From the NCBI GenBank assembly GCA_900299305.1, contig OMJJ01000156.1, positions 1 to 34,543 of the forward strand: 34,543 nucleotides of DNA. The letters run 5' to 3'. Below the pieces are notes generated by a model, which searched no databases, had not been told where the DNA came from, and worked only from the letters and a program-made list of their open reading frames with translations. Made by a program: the position numbers and the translations under genes. Position 1 is the stretch's first letter, and each line of letters begins with the position of its first letter. Below are positions 1,765-13,397 of this stretch, piece by piece. This DNA is from a bacterium (GTDB lineage: Bacteria; Armatimonadota; Chthonomonadetes; Chthonomonadales; Chthonomonadaceae).

Positions 1765-3138
1765 TTAGAACTTGTAGACTTGCCCTAGCGTGATGGTATC
1801 TTGGTCGCTGACATTGCCGGAAGCAGAGCCGAAGAGGGCTTGGTTCGCGCTGTCGTGCCGCCACTCTAGGCGAGAGACAAGGTTCTTTTTGGTGTACTCT
1901 AGGGTAAGGGTGTAGCTCTTGAGGTTGCTGTAGCCCAATCCCAAACGAGGTGCGAAGCCGCCCGTTCCCGGTAGGTCTTCAAACTGCTCGATACGTGCCG
2001 CCCATGCAAAACTGGGAGTCACTTGGTAGCGGGCAATACCGGTCATGCCTACCCAGTTACCAGAGACTTTCCCTACATTCTGGATGCTACCCGCCGCACC
2101 GCCATAGGTAAACCAACCCACGAGTTTGAGTTTGTCGGTGGGGGTAAGGATGGCTTGCCAGTCGAACAGGTTGAGGGTAACACCGCCGGCTCCTGCGGTG
2201 GGTACGCCTGCCCCAAACGCTCCGGTTCCTTCCGCGCCGCCCATCCAGCCGAGAATGTTGGTAAACTTGGTTCCGGCTTTGTAGGTTAGTTGTGCGTAGA
2301 TAGATTTGGCGTTGTTGTCGTCAGCGATGTTGTTCCACCCATTTACGATACCTGCTTGTAGCGACCACTTTCCGTTAAGGGTGGTGGTTCCACGAACTCC
2401 CGCATGGTAGAGGGGTACACCGAGTGCGAAGTTGAACGAACGGGAGTAGTTGTCGTTGCTACTGCTTTCGATAACTTCGTATCCGAAGGGGGTTGCGAAG
2501 ATACCTCCGTCGATAGCCCAGTCCTTACCCAAAAACTTGTGGTTTCCGGAGAGGAAGAGCTGTTGAACAGCCGACCAGTTGGTGGTTCCGCCGGGTTCGG
2601 TGGCGTGTACCAAGCGGGCGGTGTCGCCGATGGTAAGGGTTGCGGTAAGCCCTAACCCCAAGCCTTTACCGGGTGCACGGGTGATGTTCAGTTCGCCAAG
2701 CGAGAAGCCGGGCTGTCGGTCTTTGATGTCGAAAGCACGTCCTACGTTGTCGATATTGATGGTATCGCCGCTAGGGGTGGTAAAGACAGAGTGTCCGGGT
2801 GCTTTGGTGTTTACGCCGTAGTACCAGTCTGCCAAGCCCGTGATGGTAAGTTCGCCGGGTTTGGGACCTGCGGGTTCCTCTTTTTTCTCTTCTGGCGCAA
2901 GTGCGGCAAGAGAGGCGAGACGTAGTTGGCGGCTTTTTTCGGCGAGTGCCTCAAAAGCGAACAGGTTTTTGCGAGGGGCGGGCATCTCTGCCAGTTTGGT
3001 AGTAACTTGCTCCGACTTATCCGTTTTTACGGGTGCTTCTTGTGCATTGGCGGCGGCAGTAGAGACAAGCCCCGCACAAGCAACGGCGAAGGAGAGGGCG
3101 GAATAACGGTTTTTCGCAAGTGAAGAGTATCGATTCAC
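1765..3138 (-). CDS. Outer-membrane beta-barrel porin, BBP2 (OmpL-like) type
   Basis: A 457-aa predicted outer-membrane channel. Residues 1-32 form a signal peptide (basic start, hydrophobic core, cleavage likely after ANA). An Ala/Lys/Glu-rich linker runs to about residue 92. A barrel region follows with alternating hydrophobic strands and a terminal Tyr-Lys-Phe, the aromatic C-terminus recognised by outer-membrane assembly machinery. Motifs such as ITGLADWYYG near the barrel start and the order of strands match my memory of BBP2-family porins, which are near 400-480 aa. The GTG start is set by a strong AAGGAGG site nine bases upstream. The substrate is unknown. Its position upstream of glnA on the same strand would suit a nitrogenous solute, but that is inference only. 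Confidence 0.8.
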   Translation of the reverse strand: MNRYSSLAKNRYSALSFAVACAGLVSTAAANAQEAPVKTDKSEQVTTKLAEMPAPRKNLFAFEALAEKSRQLRLASLAALAPEEKKEEPAGPKPGELTITGLADWYYGVNTKAPGHSVFTTPSGDTINIDNVGRAFDIKDRQPGFSLGELNITRAPGKGLGLGLTATLTIGDTARLVHATEPGGTTNWSAVQQLFLSGNHKFLGKDWAIDGGIFATPFGYEVIESSSNDNYSRSFNFALGVPLYHAGVRGTTTLNGKWSLQAGIVNGWNNIADDNNAKSIYAQLTYKAGTKFTNILGWMGGAEGTGAFGAGVPTAGAGGVTLNLFDWQAILTPTDKLKLVGWFTYGGAAGSIQNVGKVSGNWVGMTGIARYQVTPSFAWAARIEQFEDLPGTGGFAPRLGLGYSNLKSYTLTLEYTKKNLVSRLEWRHDSANQALFGSASGNVSDQDTITLGQVYKF

Positions 3139-7575: not shown

Positions 7576-9747
7576 CTAACCTTCTGCCTTAAAAACCCGG
7601 CAGGCACACGCTTTGTACTCTGGAATTTTAGACACAGGGTCTAGGGCACGAATGGTAAGCAGGTTCGCCGACTTCTCGTTCGCCCAGTGGTAGGGTATGA
7701 AAACAGTATCCTCCCGAATGGTGGCTACAACGTTTGCGGGTAGTGTCACCTTCCCGCGCCGTGTCTCTACTGTAACCTGATCTTTGTGTTGAATACCAAG
7801 CCGCTTTGCAAGAGAGGGATGTATTTCGCAGAGCGGCTCCGGATACTGGTCTACTAGCCCCCCTATGCGGCGGGTTTGGGTTCCGCTAAGGTACTGACTC
7901 ACCACGCGCCCCGTAGTAAGCACTATCGGGTACTCGGCATCTGGGACTTCGGCAGGTGGCTTCCACTCTACCGCGTTGAAGTGCGCCTTTTTGTCGGGCG
8001 TATAGAACTTTTTATCCTCATACAGTCGGGGTGTACCAGTATGCTCTAAAGTGGGGCAGGGCCAGAAGACCCCCTGTTGTCTCTCTATTTTATCGTAAGT
8101 CACCCCATAGTAGTCCGCAGTCCCCCCTTTAGAAGCGACCCGCAACTCGTTGAAAATATCTTCCACGCACCGATACGGAAAATAGGAACCCCTTCCCAAT
8201 CGTTCGGCTATCTGAAGCAGTATCTCCCAATCGACTCGTGCCTGACCGGGTGGGTTCACTGCTTTGCGTAGGCGGATAATGCGCCCCTCTGCACTGGTAG
8301 CAGTTCCCTCGTCCTCCTCATGCAGAGACCCCGGAAGGATAATATCCGCATGGCGAGCAGTTTCACTCATAAAGAAGTCGATAACGGTATAGTGTTCCAC
8401 CCGATTGAACGCCTCTTTGGTAAAAGTTGCATCGGGTAGTGAGACCACTGGGTTGAAGCAGAGAGAGAGCAGACCTTTAATCTCCCCAGAGTGCATCGCC
8501 TCAATAATCTCCTCTGCGGTAAGCCCTTTGTGGGGCATCTCCTCTTCCGCGATTTTCCAAACCTCCGCAATGTACTTACGATGATCGGGGTTCTCTATAT
8601 CGCGGTTGCCGGGCAGTTGGTCGCACTTGTGTCCGTGTTCACGCCCTCCTTGCCCGTTTCCCTGCCCTGTAATGGTTCCGTACCCGCATCCCGGTCTCCC
8701 CAAACGCCCTGTAGCAAGCACAAGGTTGATACACGAAAGGACGTTCTCCACCCCTTGTGTATGGTGTTCTATGCCCCGCGCATGAAGTAGAAAACTCGTC
8801 TTGGCACGCCCCCACAACTCTGCCGCCCGAACAATCAGGGTGGGGTCTACACCAGACATCTCTCCCGCAACCTCTGGGGTGTACTTTGCCACCGCCTCCT
8901 TCACCGCTTCAAAACCGGAGGTGTAGTTTTCAATAAAGTCGGTATCTATCCAACCGCGCTCAATAACGACATGAAGTATTCCGTTCATCAGTGCCGTATC
9001 ACCGCCGGGGCGCACCGGTAGATGGATGTCCGCCGTCCTTGCTAATGGCGTAACACGCGGGTCTACCATAATCAGTTTCGCGCCTCTATCCCGCGCTCTC
9101 CAGATGTAGTCGGTAGTTATGGGCGCACACTCGGCGACATTTGCCCCTGTCACCAGTATCACGTCGGCAAGTGGAATGTCTTCCCATGAGTTTGCGGCTC
9201 TATCCAGCCCGAAGGCTTTCTTGTTACCTGCCCCAGCAGAGACCATGCAGAGCCTGCCATTATAGTCGAGGTTTTTAGTTTGGAGAGCCACCCGCGCAAA
9301 CTTACCCACCAGATACGACTTTTCGTTGGAGAGCGAGACTCCAGATAGCATCGCAAAGGCATCTCGCCCGTACTGCTTCTGTATCCGCTTTATCTCAGAA
9401 ACGGTACTATCTAGTGCCTCCTCCCAACCAATAGAGACAAACCCTCTGTCTGTCCGCTTGAGGGGGTTAAGCAGGCGGTCAGGGTGTTCGTTCTGCATAT
9501 ACCGCTTTACCCCTTTAGGGCAGAGTTTACCGCGATTGAAGGGAAACTCCTCACGGGGTTCAAAACCTATCACACGATTATTTTTTACTTTAAGGTTGAT
9601 ACCGCACTGCTGTCCGCAAAAACAGCAGTGTGTCGCTACCAACGCATCCGGCTCCTCTTGATGTTGCCAACCTCCCGGCGGTGTATAGTGTGCGTGCGGA
9701 CCGTACTGCCGAATCAGTTCGTCTAGGGGAAGCGGTAGTTTTGCCAT
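7576..9747 (-). CDS. Molybdopterin nitrate reductase catalytic subunit, NasC/NarB type
   Basis: Predicted to reduce nitrate to nitrite at a bis-MGD molybdenum centre. The 723-aa protein has an N-terminal [4Fe-4S] site C41-x2-C44-x3-C48-x27-C76, a molybdopterin oxidoreductase core, and C167 in [11 protein letters not shown] as the likely Mo ligand, in the pattern of assimilatory and periplasmic nitrate reductases. A C-terminal MGD-binding domain follows ([17 protein letters not shown] region). There is no twin-arginine signal, so it should be cytoplasmic. It also lacks the extra C-terminal [2Fe-2S] domain of proteobacterial NasA; its length matches ferredoxin-dependent NarB. It is the last gene of the operon, 15 bases after the cytochrome b gene. 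A formate dehydrogenase-like role is the main alternative, but the adjacent NarK and the Cys context argue for nitrate. Confidence 0.85.
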
Positions 9748-9762
9748 GTCTCTTCTCTCTTC

Positions 9763-10806
9763 CTAAAGGTAGCCATGTCCGCCAATGGCTTCGCGTTGAT
9801 TGATTGCCATAAGTTTACGACGACACGCAGGGCAGATGTCTTGGTAGTGGGTTCCATCCTCAAACTCAGGCTCCATGTCTAACTCCTTGAGGACGACCTT
9901 CAAATCCTCTACGTGCAGTTTAGAGGCGTAGGGTTGCTGACACCGCACACAGACCGCCTGTTCGGTTTCACGCCCCTCTTGCTTGTAGAACTGAACCCCC
10001 AAATTTGCCGGACGTTGGAAGATATGAAAGAACTTTCCAAACGGCAAGTAGATGAGCGTAACAATAACGCTAAAGGCGTGAAGCAGAGCAAGAAAACTAT
10101 AGGAGTGCCCCTGTAGCCAGAGCGCACTTACTGTCAACATCAGCCCCGTAACACAGACGCTAAAGAGCATAATAAGAGGCAGAAAATCCATCCCGAACGT
10201 CTGCACACTCATCGCCCCTCTATCTGACATACGGCGTTTCATGGCGATTGCCATACCAATAATGATAGCCACCGCGCAGAAATCTAAAATATGAAACGTA
10301 ACCCATCCCACCCAAGAGTACGCCGGAAACCGCCCTGCAGCAGTCCCAAACACCATTGCGACATAGTACTCCTGATTCTGTGGGTCTGCCTCGAAGTGTA
10401 CCCAGCCAAACACCAGCGGGAATGTGACCGCAACCGCAAGAATACATCCCCAAGACATCAGAAAGTGCGCTAACCAACGCAGAGGGTCACGGTTACTAAT
10501 GAACTTCTGTAGCCCTATATTCTGCACCAAAAGGCGTAGCAAATGCAGACAGTTGGCGGGGAGGCGCGAGGGGCGCATAAACAGTTGCCAACCGCGCCGC
10601 CAGTACATAGCCGTCGGCGGTTTTTGAAGCCATACCGAGTAGCGGTATACAATACCAAAGGTAGCAAAGACAGTTGCAGAGGTGTAGGCGATAAGGGCAG
10701 GGTCGAAGTGTTTTAGTTTCCCCGACCCCAAATAGATTGCCACCACCAGCAGTAGCGTTGCCGCCACGCCGTTTCGCGTCCCCTTTTTGTCCAGTTGTGA
10801 TAGCAT
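9763..10806 (-). CDS. NarI/HdrE-like cytochrome b membrane subunit with four-Cys tail
   Basis: A predicted quinol-oxidising membrane subunit that would pass electrons to the Fe-S and molybdenum subunits. The 347-aa protein has about six hydrophobic segments (roughly 13-27, 36-58, 113-134, 166-188, 207-230, 238-257). H114, H172, H243 and H261 lie in or beside helices and are candidate heme b ligands; the segment LLHAFSVIVTLIYLPFGKFF closely resembles the last helices of NarI. After residue 280 a soluble tail carries C286-x2-C289 and C325-x2-C328, a spacing suggesting a zinc ribbon or rubredoxin-like site; this tail is not part of ordinary NarI. It lies 11 bases after narK with an AGGGGG ribosome site. 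The heme assignment is inferred from helix position only. Confidence 0.7.
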   Translation of the reverse strand: MLSQLDKKGTRNGVAATLLLVVAIYLGSGKLKHFDPALIAYTSATVFATFGIVYRYSVWLQKPPTAMYWRRGWQLFMRPSRLPANCLHLLRLLVQNIGLQKFISNRDPLRWLAHFLMSWGCILAVAVTFPLVFGWVHFEADPQNQEYYVAMVFGTAAGRFPAYSWVGWVTFHILDFCAVAIIIGMAIAMKRRMSDRGAMSVQTFGMDFLPLIMLFSVCVTGLMLTVSALWLQGHSYSFLALLHAFSVIVTLIYLPFGKFFHIFQRPANLGVQFYKQEGRETEQAVCVRCQQPYASKLHVEDLKVVLKELDMEPEFEDGTHYQDICPACRRKLMAINQREAIGGHGYL

Positions 10807-10817
10807 CCCTCTGCCCC

Positions 10818-12002
10818 CTAAGCCTCTGCGAGTTGCGCCTTACCACCCGTTTTAGGGCGAATAAGGACGGTGTAGTTTAGAATCAAGCAGAGGATACAGA
10901 ACACTGCGAGTAACACAAACCCTAGCACATAACTACCCGTTTGGGTCTTTATAACGCCCAGCAGTAGCGGCGGGAAAAAGCCGCCGAGTCCTCCCATAGC
11001 CCCCACTAGCCCCGTAACGGTTCCGGTATCTTTATGGAAGTGCTGGGGAACCAACTTAAACACGGCTCCGTTACCCAACCCGATAGATGCCGCAACCCCC
11101 AACGCACCAATGGTAAAGGGAACGATAGAGGAAAACGTCATTCCCAACGCAAGGATACCTGCGGTTAGGAAAATTATTTTGAGTACGTTCGCCCCTCCCC
11201 ATTTGTCGCTAAAGTATCCCCCTAACGGGCGCATAATCGTTGCGACTAGGACAAAGCCAGCAACCCGTAACCCCGCATCCTCTTTGGTAAAGTGAAATAT
11301 CTCTTGTAGTAGCTTGGGTAATCCTATACTAAGCGCAACGAACCCGCCAAACGTCACAAAGTAGAACAGCGATAGTAGCCATGCCAGTGGTTGCGTGCCT
11401 AATACCTTTATCATCTCGCCAAAACTCTTGGGCTGTGCCTGTACGGGCGCGTTTCGAGCCAGTAGCAGAAACAGAATACCATAGACAAGAGCCACTATCG
11501 CAAAGACCTTATAGGTCATCTGCCAGCCCCCTAGCACTCCAGAGAGATAGGGGATACCGAATAGAGCGAGGCTCTGCCCGATGTTTCCTGCTCCGTAGAT
11601 TCCGAGTGCCAGCCCCTGCTGTTGCGGGGGAAACCACTTGGAGGTAAAGGCAACCCCCACCGAGAATGAGGTTCCTGCCATCCCCAAAAACAGTGCCCAA
11701 AAGAGCAACTGCTCGTAAGAGGTAGCAAGGCTCAACATCCACGCGGGGAACGCAATAAAGAGGAGTAGCACTCCAAACACAACCCTACCGCCCAGCCTAT
11801 CTGCCAACATTCCCATAGGTAGCCGAATAATAGAGCCGAGCAGTACCGGCGTAGCAATCAATGCCCAAACCTGCCACTCCGTAAGGTGCAGTGTGGTCTG
11901 GAACGTTTTTGCCATCGGGGAGATCATTCCCCACACCGCAAACGAGATAGCAAAAGCCAGTGTGGAGAGTGTAAGAGCGGTTTTAGAAGCGGAGTTATTC
12001 AT
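10818..12002 (-). CDS. narK: Nitrate/nitrite transporter, NNP family of the MFS
   Basis: Imports nitrate and/or exports nitrite across the inner membrane. The 394-aa protein has about 12 transmembrane segments. Family features visible are the RLPMGMLADRLGGR loop after helix 2 (MFS motif A, with a helix Arg expected to contact nitrate), a Gly-rich segment GIYGAGNIG, the second conserved Arg in IMRPLGGYFSDKWGG, and a late glycine-rich nitrate signature GAMGGLGGFFPP. It overlaps the upstream 82-aa gene by four bases and is followed closely by the cytochrome b gene, so transport and reduction are co-expressed. Whether it is a nitrate/proton symporter or a nitrate/nitrite antiporter cannot be told from the sequence. 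Confidence 0.9.
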   Translation of the reverse strand: MNNSASKTALTLSTLAFAISFAVWGMISPMAKTFQTTLHLTEWQVWALIATPVLLGSIIRLPMGMLADRLGGRVVFGVLLLFIAFPAWMLSLATSYEQLLFWALFLGMAGTSFSVGVAFTSKWFPPQQQGLALGIYGAGNIGQSLALFGIPYLSGVLGGWQMTYKVFAIVALVYGILFLLLARNAPVQAQPKSFGEMIKVLGTQPLAWLLSLFYFVTFGGFVALSIGLPKLLQEIFHFTKEDAGLRVAGFVLVATIMRPLGGYFSDKWGGANVLKIIFLTAGILALGMTFSSIVPFTIGALGVAASIGLGNGAVFKLVPQHFHKDTGTVTGLVGAMGGLGGFFPPLLLGVIKTQTGSYVLGFVLLAVFCILCLILNYTVLIRPKTGGKAQLAEA

Positions 12003-12247
12003 CGTTTTCCCTCTTTTCTATCGAGGTGGTTCACATAGCGCAAAAGGCGTAGGTTGACAAGAAAACAGGCGAGCGAGGCGAGAGTAGTAGGTATCGCTAA
12101 AGCAGACTTCCCTCCCATAAACTCCTCTAGGGCAACGGTTAGTAGCCAGAGTTGGATAAGGAAGATGGGTAGCATCATCACCATAATCGTGCTAACCCCT
12201 TGAGTGCGTTGCTCCCACTCTGCCTGTTCTGGGGAAGGCTTTCTCAT
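11999..12247 (-). CDS. Small two-helix membrane protein of the nitrate operon
   Basis: An 82-aa protein of unknown function. A charged, Glu/Gln-rich N-terminus (about 1-18) is followed by two hydrophobic helices (about 19-41 and 49-68) and a basic C-terminal tail. It overlaps the Rieske gene upstream and narK downstream by four bases each, which makes it a genuine coupled gene rather than chance coding. No cysteines near a cofactor motif or obvious heme histidine pair are present. A likely role is membrane anchoring or assembly of the Rieske/Fe-S subunits, which is inferred from position alone. Confidence 0.72.
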   Translation of the reverse strand: MRKPSPEQAEWEQRTQGVSTIMVMMLPIFLIQLWLLTVALEEFMGGKSALAIPTTLASLACFLVNLRLLRYVNHLDRKEGKR

Positions 12248-12738
12248 GTCTCATCGGCTCCTATAGCAAAAACCTTACCCTCTTCTACTTTTAGGTGAAT
12301 TTTGGGTAGCGGGCGTGGTGGAGGTCCACTAAGTACCGCCCCTGTTTTTGCATCGAATGCCCCGTTGTGACAGGGACACTCTAGGCGGTCAGTGTTCTTT
12401 GCATAGTGAACAGGGCAACTGAGGTGGGTACACCGCTGTTTATACGCTACAAACTCGCCGTTTGTAAGGCGGATAAGCAGAGCGGGGTCATCCTCTGTAG
12501 GATAACGAAACAGTTTCACCTGCCCCTCTCCCAACTCGTCTACCAGTGCAACTTCCTTAGTAGTCTTGGGGGCTTGCTCCTCCTGATACTTACGCGCAAC
12601 AAAGTAGCTGTTTCCTACTACCGTCGCCCCCGATACCAGCACCAGAAACCGCGAAAAGTCGCGGCGCGTCACATAGGTATCACGGCTCCACAGAGTAGGG
12701 AAGTCCTCTCGCCATTTAGGAGTAGAGCCTTCTTTCAT
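12244..12738 (-). CDS. Membrane-anchored Rieske [2Fe-2S] protein
   Basis: A 164-aa electron-transfer subunit. An N-terminal TRRDFSRF motif (24-31) followed by a hydrophobic stretch (32-48) resembles the Tat-dependent anchors of Rieske proteins in bc complexes, which would put the cluster outside the cytoplasm. The Rieske domain has ligands C103, H105, C121 and H124 and the paired cysteines C108 and C123 that form the stabilising disulfide. The second box reads CPCHNGAF, without the Ser and Tyr of CPCHGSxY that raise the potential in bc1-type proteins, so a lower midpoint potential is expected. It overlaps both neighbouring genes by four bases. It may link quinol oxidation to the operon's other redox subunits. 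Confidence 0.88.
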
Positions 12739-13331
12739 ACGCTAACCTCCTCACGTTTTATAGAGACAACATCTTTCAGGCGGACATCTATGCGTACCTC
12801 TTTGGGCGCAGATTCCGGCAAAACCATGTAGACGTTGGTAGTAACTGTCTGCCTCCCGAATCGCCACTGATTCACAGGTTTCCCTCTTCGCCTCGCCTTC
12901 CACTCCTCTAAGGTTCCGAAGTAGAGTGCCTCAGAAGGACAGACCGTGGCGCACATCGGACGCTTTCCTACGGAAGTACGGTCGTAGCACATATCGCACT
13001 TTATCATCTGGTCGGCATCGGAGAGGTATTTAGGTACACCAAATGGACAGGCAAGCACACAGTTTTGGCAACCGATACAGCGGGGTTTGAGCGAGGTGTG
13101 TACAATGCCATCGGGGTTCTGCTTAATCGCATCGGCAGGGCACACTTGAGCGCACGTCGGGTTTTCGCAGTGCATACAGACTTGTGGGGTTGTTTGGATA
13201 GTACTTTCTCGGTGGATATACTCAAGGTGAATCATCGAGGTACCCCTATGCGTTCCGCACTCGCTACAGGCTTGCACACACGCTTGGCAACCAATACAGC
13301 GTGCAGGGTCTATGATGAATACGTTCTCCAT
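12735..13331 (-). CDS. Four-cluster [4Fe-4S] ferredoxin-like subunit (NrfC/DmsB/HybA type)
   Basis: An electron-wiring subunit of 198 aa with 16 cysteines in four groups: [37 protein letters not shown] and CDMCY...CATVCP, the layout of the Fe-S beta subunits of molybdoenzymes such as DmsB and NrfC. There is no signal peptide, so it would sit with the catalytic subunit on the cytoplasmic side. The frame is open to 13397, but MENVFIID at 13331 matches the usual short lead to the first cluster and lies about 30 bases below the predicted transcription start; the longer version would begin in the -35 region. It is the first gene of the operon and overlaps the Rieske gene by four bases. Confidence 0.9.
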
Positions 13332-13355
13332 AATCAAATCCCATTTCTGTATAAA

Positions 13356-13377
13356 TATATCTTGATATACTATATCA
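13356..13377. promoter_or_regulatory. Candidate operator: three alternating TATATC half-sites
   Basis: The half-site occurs as TATATC (13356-13361), GATATA (13364-13369) and TATATC (13371-13376). This creates two overlapping palindromes, including the perfect 15-base TGATATACTATATCA at 13363-13377. The block overlaps the -10 and predicted start of the nitrate operon promoter, so a bound protein would block transcription. It does not have FNR/CRP spacing. The regulator is not identifiable. Confidence 0.6.
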
Positions 13378-13397
13378 TAACAAAGTAACCCCGTCAA
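13369..13397 (-). promoter_or_regulatory. Sigma-70-type promoter of the nitrate operon
   Basis: On the minus strand TTGACG (13392-13397) and TATAGT (13369-13374) are separated by exactly 17 bases. Transcription would start near 13362, about 30 bases before the Fe-S gene. It lies between the lipoprotein gene and the operon, so the operon can be transcribed separately from the lipoprotein. Confidence 0.75.

Follow-up and report, generated by a model that had tools for sequence, protein, structure and literature searches.

A stretch of 34,543 nucleotides on contig OMJJ01000156.1 (assembly GCA_900299305.1), derived from a bacterium of the family Chthonomonadaceae in Armatimonadota, was analyzed in this study; it is hereafter called the window, and all coordinates are its positions on the contig. 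Six genes, all on the minus strand, are packed within positions 7576-13331, and they appear to encode a membrane-anchored nitrate reductase with a catalytic core of the NasC type. From upstream to downstream, the gene products are an iron-sulfur (Fe-S) electron-transfer subunit similar to DmsB, FdnH, and NrfC (12735-13331; 198 amino acids from ATG), a Rieske [2Fe-2S] protein (12244-12738; 164 amino acids), a small membrane protein (11999-12247; 82 amino acids), a nitrate/nitrite transporter of the NarK type in the major facilitator superfamily (10818-12002), a membrane cytochrome b (9763-10806; 347 amino acids), and a catalytic subunit with a molybdenum-bis(pyranopterin guanine dinucleotide) cofactor (Mo-bisPGD; 7576-9747; 723 amino acids). 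The Rieske gene overlaps the Fe-S gene by 4 bp, as does the small membrane protein gene with the Rieske gene and the NarK-type gene with that of the small membrane protein; the cytochrome b gene then follows after 11 bp, and the molybdoenzyme gene after a further 15 bp. A preliminary description had read these genes as an operon of six overlapping or tightly spaced genes for a four-cluster Fe-S protein, a Rieske protein, an 82-residue protein with two helices, a NarK-like carrier, a NarI/HdrE-like cytochrome b, and a NasC/NarB-like molybdoenzyme with no twin-arginine signal. Both this arrangement and the assignments are upheld by the results below, except that the naming of the cytochrome b holds only in part. 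Indeed, the arrangement is far beyond chance: related genomes contain the same set of genes (hereafter, the cassette), and so do 80 loci from other species. A leader at 13345-13380 of the minus strand, immediately before the operon, contains a 15-bp palindrome, TGATATAGTATATCA, as a possible site for a regulator; the palindrome was, however, absent upstream of two loci from the same genus, and its candidacy as a conserved regulator site was hence dropped.

The cassette was surveyed by a protein search with cytochrome b in 61 related genomes and by a scan of species-representative genomes, in which 393 relatives were confirmed and 80 were kept; many of the loci are from metagenome-assembled genomes, with isolates and complete replicons also among them. 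Matches to cytochrome b were found in 24 of the 61 related genomes (18 of them strong), and the surrounding DNA contained the same cassette wherever there was enough sequence. In all of the 80 loci, a NasC-type gene comes next after cytochrome b, and no locus on a sufficiently long contig is without the genes of the Fe-S and Rieske proteins. The preliminary description had left it to a search whether the neighborhood exists in other genomes, and a core of five genes (namely, those of cytochrome b, the NasC-type molybdoenzyme, the protein with four [4Fe-4S] clusters, the Rieske protein, and the small membrane protein) was found in at least ten phyla: Armatimonadota, Acidobacteriota, Planctomycetota, Chloroflexota, Cyanobacteriota/Melainabacteria, Myxococcota, Verrucomicrobiota, Vulcanimicrobiota (Eremiobacterota), Actinomycetota, and Deinococcota. 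The cassettes of Deinococcota are on plasmids, and one is on the complete chromosome of Sorangium cellulosum So ceGT47. In terms of gene order, the loci fall into two types, FeS-Rieske-DUF6755-NarK-CytB-NasC as in the window and CytB-NasC-FeS-Rieske-DUF6755 as in most of the others, and one genome of Armatimonadota (G018) has both. The second order is found also in Deinococcus sp. NW-56, where the public annotations are generic and cytochrome b is named "MFS transporter". Furthermore, the core genes diverge together; when pairwise distances were compared across 71 loci, the correlations among NasC, cytochrome b, Fe-S, and Rieske subunits were 0.84-0.94, which was reached in none of the 500 permutations, and those of the four subunits with NarK were lower (0.53-0.62). 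Such correlations point to co-inheritance of the subunits and not to their contact.

The cassette is loosened in one family (f14, perhaps Fimbriimonas-like; L132/L037 in G054, L134, and L135). In G054, cytochrome b is encoded together with two copies of NarK, the moa/mob genes, and a regulator of the Crp type, about 10 kb away from the FeS-Rieske-NasC genes. Regarding cytochrome b in this family as an orphan was wrong, given that Fe-S, Rieske, and NasC genes are nearby in G054, and Fe-S and Rieske genes in G126. Also, several phyla have a gene for a protein of 444-469 amino acids inserted in the cassette or close to it (L025:4649-6058 and L073:14097-15431, and also L109 and L112); the protein has no match in Pfam, its copy in L025 has a CxxCH motif, and it is possibly a c-type cytochrome serving as an electron partner.

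The best family model for the molybdoenzyme was that of NasC (NF047855, 840 bits), the equivalog cut-off of which (1100) was not reached; the NarG model was not among the family matches listed for this protein, and NarG appeared only as a short match in the PDB. The model of the alpha subunit of formate dehydrogenase (Fdh), TIGR01591, scored 625 bits, and the solved structures closest by sequence are those of formate dehydrogenases, both of which would favor an enzyme not acting on nitrate but on formate or another oxyanion. In a tree of catalytic subunits, nonetheless, the 32 cassette enzymes formed one clade with a value of 100 in the Shimodaira-Hasegawa-like approximate likelihood ratio test. 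Its sister was the nirB-linked NasC of Paenibacillus, actinobacteria, and Deinococcus grandis (fork support, 97), and NapA and the four formate dehydrogenases branched elsewhere. This tree was made by a quick method with labeled references from plasmids and with NarG left out, and several of the references are on long branches, so that the deep placement is tentative. The motif at the active site, NGRLCMVSA, was present in 91 of the 92 cassette enzymes read (NGRLCMVSS in the remaining one), and the Cys-Met in this motif is replaced by Cys-His or Sec-His in the Fdh references. The preliminary description had named a grouping with formate dehydrogenases as the outcome that would speak against its proposal, and the tree shows no such grouping. 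A formate dehydrogenase is hence rejected on the basis of the tree and the Cys-Met motif; with NarK and genes of denitrification in the neighborhood as well, we consider any reading other than a nitrate reductase to be very improbable, and reduction of nitrate by the cassette enzyme is likely. No twin-arginine signal was found on the molybdoenzyme, and a Nap-type enzyme is also rejected, given the lack of a signal on this subunit and of the Nap partner genes (NapB/C/GH) in the operon. An N-terminal extension of about 35 residues (consensus ...YGPH...PPGGW...) is common to the cassette enzymes that were compared; it is absent from canonical NasC and is a candidate for an element docking the Fe-S subunit. 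Other molybdoenzymes were seen in passing: the genome of the window contains a second molybdopterin oxidoreductase with an in-frame TGA (L046, G000:C248, 8390-9661), which is possibly a selenocysteine-containing formate dehydrogenase, and a second, different pair of a molybdoenzyme and an Fe-S protein adjoins the cassette in G042 (L032:15817-18312 and 18316 onward).

The Fe-S subunit matches PF13247 as well as the DMSO_dmsB and FDH-beta models, and its nearest relatives with a solved structure are FdnH (1kqf_B) and an NrfC-like subunit (2vpw_B). Among about 86 homologs, 17 Cys residues are conserved, 16 of which fit four [4Fe-4S] clusters, C25 being extra. The Rieske protein was recognized by PF00355 and by matches to Rieske proteins in the PDB, and its CTHLSC and CPCH motifs are those of the bc1/b6f type. 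While no signal peptide was found on the Fe-S subunit of the window and the catalytic subunit also has no signal, the Rieske protein has an N-terminal membrane anchor with a twin-arginine motif; RRx[FLM] was present in 72 of the 86 Rieske homologs extracted, and some of the other 14 are open reading frames in a wrong frame. Because of this conserved RR[DE]F anchor, the Rieske protein is probably inserted by the twin-arginine translocation (Tat) system with its cluster outside, and would then be on the side of the membrane opposite to the catalytic subunit. The 82-residue protein belongs to DUF6755 (PF20540, E = 2e-19), a named but uncharacterized family; it has two hydrophobic stretches in its hydropathy profile, is kept beside the Rieske gene in most loci, and is a putative accessory subunit.

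No match was found in Pfam for cytochrome b, and its best match in NCBIfam was to the C-terminal half of QmoC (E = 2e-9). The AlphaFold2 model, based on 66 sequences, shows a membrane protein with six transmembrane helices (predicted local distance difference test score of 89.8). In the Foldseek search with this model, no match was below an E value of 0.001, and EtfD was the only sensible one (probability, 1.00; E = 0.011; TM-score, 0.40); a search of the PDB with the sequence profile gave nothing convincing. Across the 66 sequences, His114, His243, and His261 are invariant, and His172 is present in 55, with Asn in the other 11, mostly from Acidobacteriota. A basic loop at residues 62-107 has a net charge of +7.8, marking the cytoplasmic side in the model, and His114 and His261 would therefore be in the cytoplasmic half of the membrane and His172 and His243 in the periplasmic half. 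The spacing between His243 and His261 is 18 residues, and His187 and His205 in NarI are likewise 18 residues apart. The model is thus suggestive of a two-heme arrangement like that of NarI: a membrane protein with a plausible layout for two hemes remains of the NarI/HdrE-like cytochrome b in the preliminary description, but the label itself depends on weak matches of profile and fold. Furthermore, a CxxC...CPxC pair at the C-terminal residues 286-328 (approximately 9823-9951 in the window) is invariant in the 66 sequences; the domain resembles a zinc ribbon or a rubredoxin-like site. Cytochrome b of G054 in the loosened family has Asn at the position of His172 and is without the C-terminal Cys pairs.

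Rieske motifs of the bc1/b6f type on a conserved twin-arginine anchor, together with the constant presence of a membrane cytochrome b and a gene for a c-type-cytochrome-like protein (CxxCH) inserted in some cassettes, might also indicate a bc1-like complex with a Q-cycle, in which the two electrons of quinol part ways, one passing via the Rieske protein on the outside to cytochrome c and one via the hemes to the nitrate reductase on the inside. No partner cytochrome c is, however, conserved; cytochrome b is not PetB-like, and the second heme ligand is missing in some members. Bifurcation would, moreover, not be needed with an acceptor as strong as nitrate, and we regard a Q-cycle as unlikely.

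The transporter of the window matches TIGR00886 with 230 bits, below the cut-off of 312. Among 79 loci, NarK is beside 38, an anion channel of the SLAC1 family (PF03595) beside 23, and both beside none (Fisher's test, 4e-9). The label switches between NarK and SLAC1 7-12 times on the NasC tree, and the pattern is hence not a single ancient split; indeed, the SLAC1-type channel in G010 (L027) occupies the exact place of NarK between DUF6755 and cytochrome b. Genes of this SLAC1/TDT family are at L027:7558-8664, L064:14832-15938, and L098:14915-15964, among other loci, and their products are candidates for a bacterial channel of nitrate/nitrite. Since NarK has repeatedly given way to an anion transporter of another family, passage of nitrate/nitrite across the membrane seems to be required, which in turn suggests that the active site is cytoplasmic and served by import of nitrate. 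The opposite topology would be obtained if the twin-arginine signal on the Rieske protein carried the whole Fe-S/Mo complex to the periplasm, as AioB does for AioA; the motif is indeed conserved on the Rieske protein, which resembles AioB. A periplasmic enzyme would have no need of the NarK or SLAC1 protein encoded at 61 of the 79 loci, however, and the charge pattern places the basic loops of cytochrome b inside. We thus find export of the enzyme quite improbable.

In the same 79 loci, the neighboring genes include those of the iron-sulfur repair protein RIC (20 loci), Crp (10), Rrf2 (9), and NnrS-like proteins (7), as well as nitric oxide (NO) reductase (qNor; 4), NosZ (4), and NrfA (2), whereas nirA, nirB, or nirD was found in no cassette locus; in the plasmid collection, by contrast, nirB or nirD adjoins the references for canonical NasC. 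In several relatives from the family and order of the window, RIC immediately precedes the operon or is a short distance before it. Given these neighbors for NO repair, regulation, and denitrification and the lack of nirB/nirA, a respiratory or redox-balancing role is favored, and the cassette family is most likely to be mainly respiratory/denitrifying or redox-balancing. The alternative is an assimilatory nitrate reductase linked to the membrane, which would use quinol instead of ferredoxin or NADH and supply nitrite to NirA as a nitrogen source. In favor of this, assimilatory NasC is the sister group of the cassette enzymes, and a siroheme reductase of the NirA type is encoded on another contig of the genome of the window; a PII-like gene is also 2 kb downstream of the cassette in the same-genus genome G001 (L022:10985-11323), and glnA is in the window. 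Against assimilation, besides the lack of nirA/nirB at the cassette loci and the RIC genes directly upstream in other family members, NirA is present also in family members without the cassette and may therefore be a sulfite reductase; the NirA of this genome scores below the cut-offs of both nitrite and sulfite reductases, with a nitrite reductase model as the nearest. Assimilation as the main role is accordingly a less probable but real possibility. As for glnA (168-1590 or 168-1697), it is 6 kb from the operon beyond the sbcCD pair, the neighborhoods of related cassettes showed no glnA, and its link to the operon was rejected; a gene for a BBP2-type porin (1765-3138) is also beyond the sbcCD pair.

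Taken together, we consider it fairly probable that the operon encodes a membrane-anchored nitrate reductase facing the cytoplasm and fed by a quinol-driven electron wire, for which coupling to quinol is plausible. Quinol would be oxidized at cytochrome b near the periplasmic heme (His172/His243), and electrons would cross to the cytoplasmic heme (His114/His261) and then be relayed by the four clusters in the Fe-S subunit to the single [4Fe-4S] cluster of the catalytic subunit, where nitrate would be reduced to nitrite at the Cys-ligated Mo-bisPGD. NarK, or elsewhere the SLAC1-type channel, would exchange nitrate and nitrite with the outside, and the Rieske and DUF6755 proteins would be integral parts of the complex, probably at the side of quinol oxidation. 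Across the family, nitrite may go to NrfA, denitrification enzymes, or export.

Several observations weigh against this proposal. The likeness of cytochrome b to NarI, QmoC, and EtfD is weak, extending over half of the protein in the case of the QmoC profile, and its second heme would not be universal, because His172 is Asn in 11 of the 66 sequences. A Rieske protein of the Tat type does not fit a plain scheme of NarGHI. Also, while the genome of the window has NrfA with a ResB-like partner, NirA, and RIC, with no match to NirK or qNor, two genomes of the same genus (G001 and G003) have NirA with no match to NrfA, NirK, or qNor, which would suit an assimilatory enzyme; NrfA as a constant partner was hence discarded, and, with glnA 6 kb from the operon, assimilation is possible in this genus. 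The preliminary description had left the choice among respiration, redox balancing, and assimilation; the neighborhood across the family is mainly respiratory, but the organism of the window has both NirA and NrfA, and a contribution to assimilation through NirA is possible there. Its proposal of an analog of NarGHI made from different parts is, likewise, supported in part by the NasC core, the co-evolving cassette, and the membrane cytochrome b but is incomplete, with the twin-arginine Rieske protein probably across the membrane from the catalytic subunit.

Marker genes are commonly used to deduce nitrate reduction in soils, aquifers, and wastewater, with narG/napA taken as respiratory and nasC/narB as assimilatory, and NasC/NasA is treated as exclusively assimilatory in the literature (PMC10100899). 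If the cassette is respiratory, many members of Acidobacteriota, Planctomycetota, Chloroflexota, and Armatimonadota may have been assigned a wrong role in nitrogen metabolism. The chances appear even that the cassette represents an unrecognized class, namely quinol-linked, cytoplasmic, respiratory nitrate reductases of the NasC branch that have a Rieske protein and interchangeable NarK/SLAC1, occur in at least ten phyla, and are at risk of being miscounted as assimilatory (nasC/narB) when genomes are surveyed. According to a phylogeny published in 2020, no member of the NasC clade has the canonical four-cluster or membrane-anchor subunits (PMC7331816); the cassette, if respiratory, would contradict the view that the NasC/Nap/Fdh branch lacks them and would represent another way in which a membrane nitrate reductase can be built. 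The exchange of NarK and SLAC1 furthermore suggests a bacterial channel of nitrate or nitrite related to the plant SLAC1 family. No described NasC-type enzyme linked to quinol was found in the open-licence literature, and the novelty is in this sense provisional.

Among known systems, NarGHI of E. coli shares with the cassette a Mo enzyme facing the cytoplasm, an Fe-S subunit with multiple clusters, a membrane cytochrome b, and NarK, with quinol as the donor, which would apply also to the cassette. The catalytic subunit of the cassette is, however, not NarG but a NasC-type protein of 723 amino acids with a Cys ligand motif, and its cytochrome b is only remotely NarI-like and has the C-terminal CxxC domain; the Rieske and DUF6755 proteins are added, and no NarJ-like chaperone was recognized in the operon of the window. 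NasC/NasA/NarB, the sister clade, is likewise cytoplasmic with a single N-terminal cluster and NarK as a partner but is without the dedicated Fe-S, cytochrome b, Rieske, and DUF6755 subunits and the N-terminal extension, and the cassette has no nirB/nirA neighbor. The nearest functional parallel would be Nar of haloarchaea, in which NarGH is clustered with a Rieske protein and cytochrome b and quinol was proposed as the donor (discussed in PMC4683180). NarGH of haloarchaea and Methanoperedens is nevertheless of the NarG type, located outside the membrane, with a bc1-like cytochrome b, whereas the cassette enzyme is of the NasC type with no signal peptide, and its cytochrome b is remotely QmoC/EtfD-like, with no match to the bc1 cytochrome b profile when the window proteins were compared with family profiles. 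To the cytochrome b of QmoC, EtfD, and HdrE, the membrane subunit is weakly similar in profile and fold, but it is without the Fe-S domain of the Hdr type, has the fused C-terminal CxxC...CPxC domain, and partners a molybdoenzyme. With the complex iron-sulfur molybdoenzymes (DmsABC, FdnGHI, and PsrABC), the cassette shares genes for a Mo subunit, a four-cluster Fe-S subunit, and a putative membrane quinol subunit in one gene cluster; its Mo subunit is, however, from the NasC branch, and the Rieske and DUF6755 proteins are added. The cassette is real and widespread, and it is apparently an undescribed variant of the plan of complex iron-sulfur molybdoenzymes, built on a NasC-type core.

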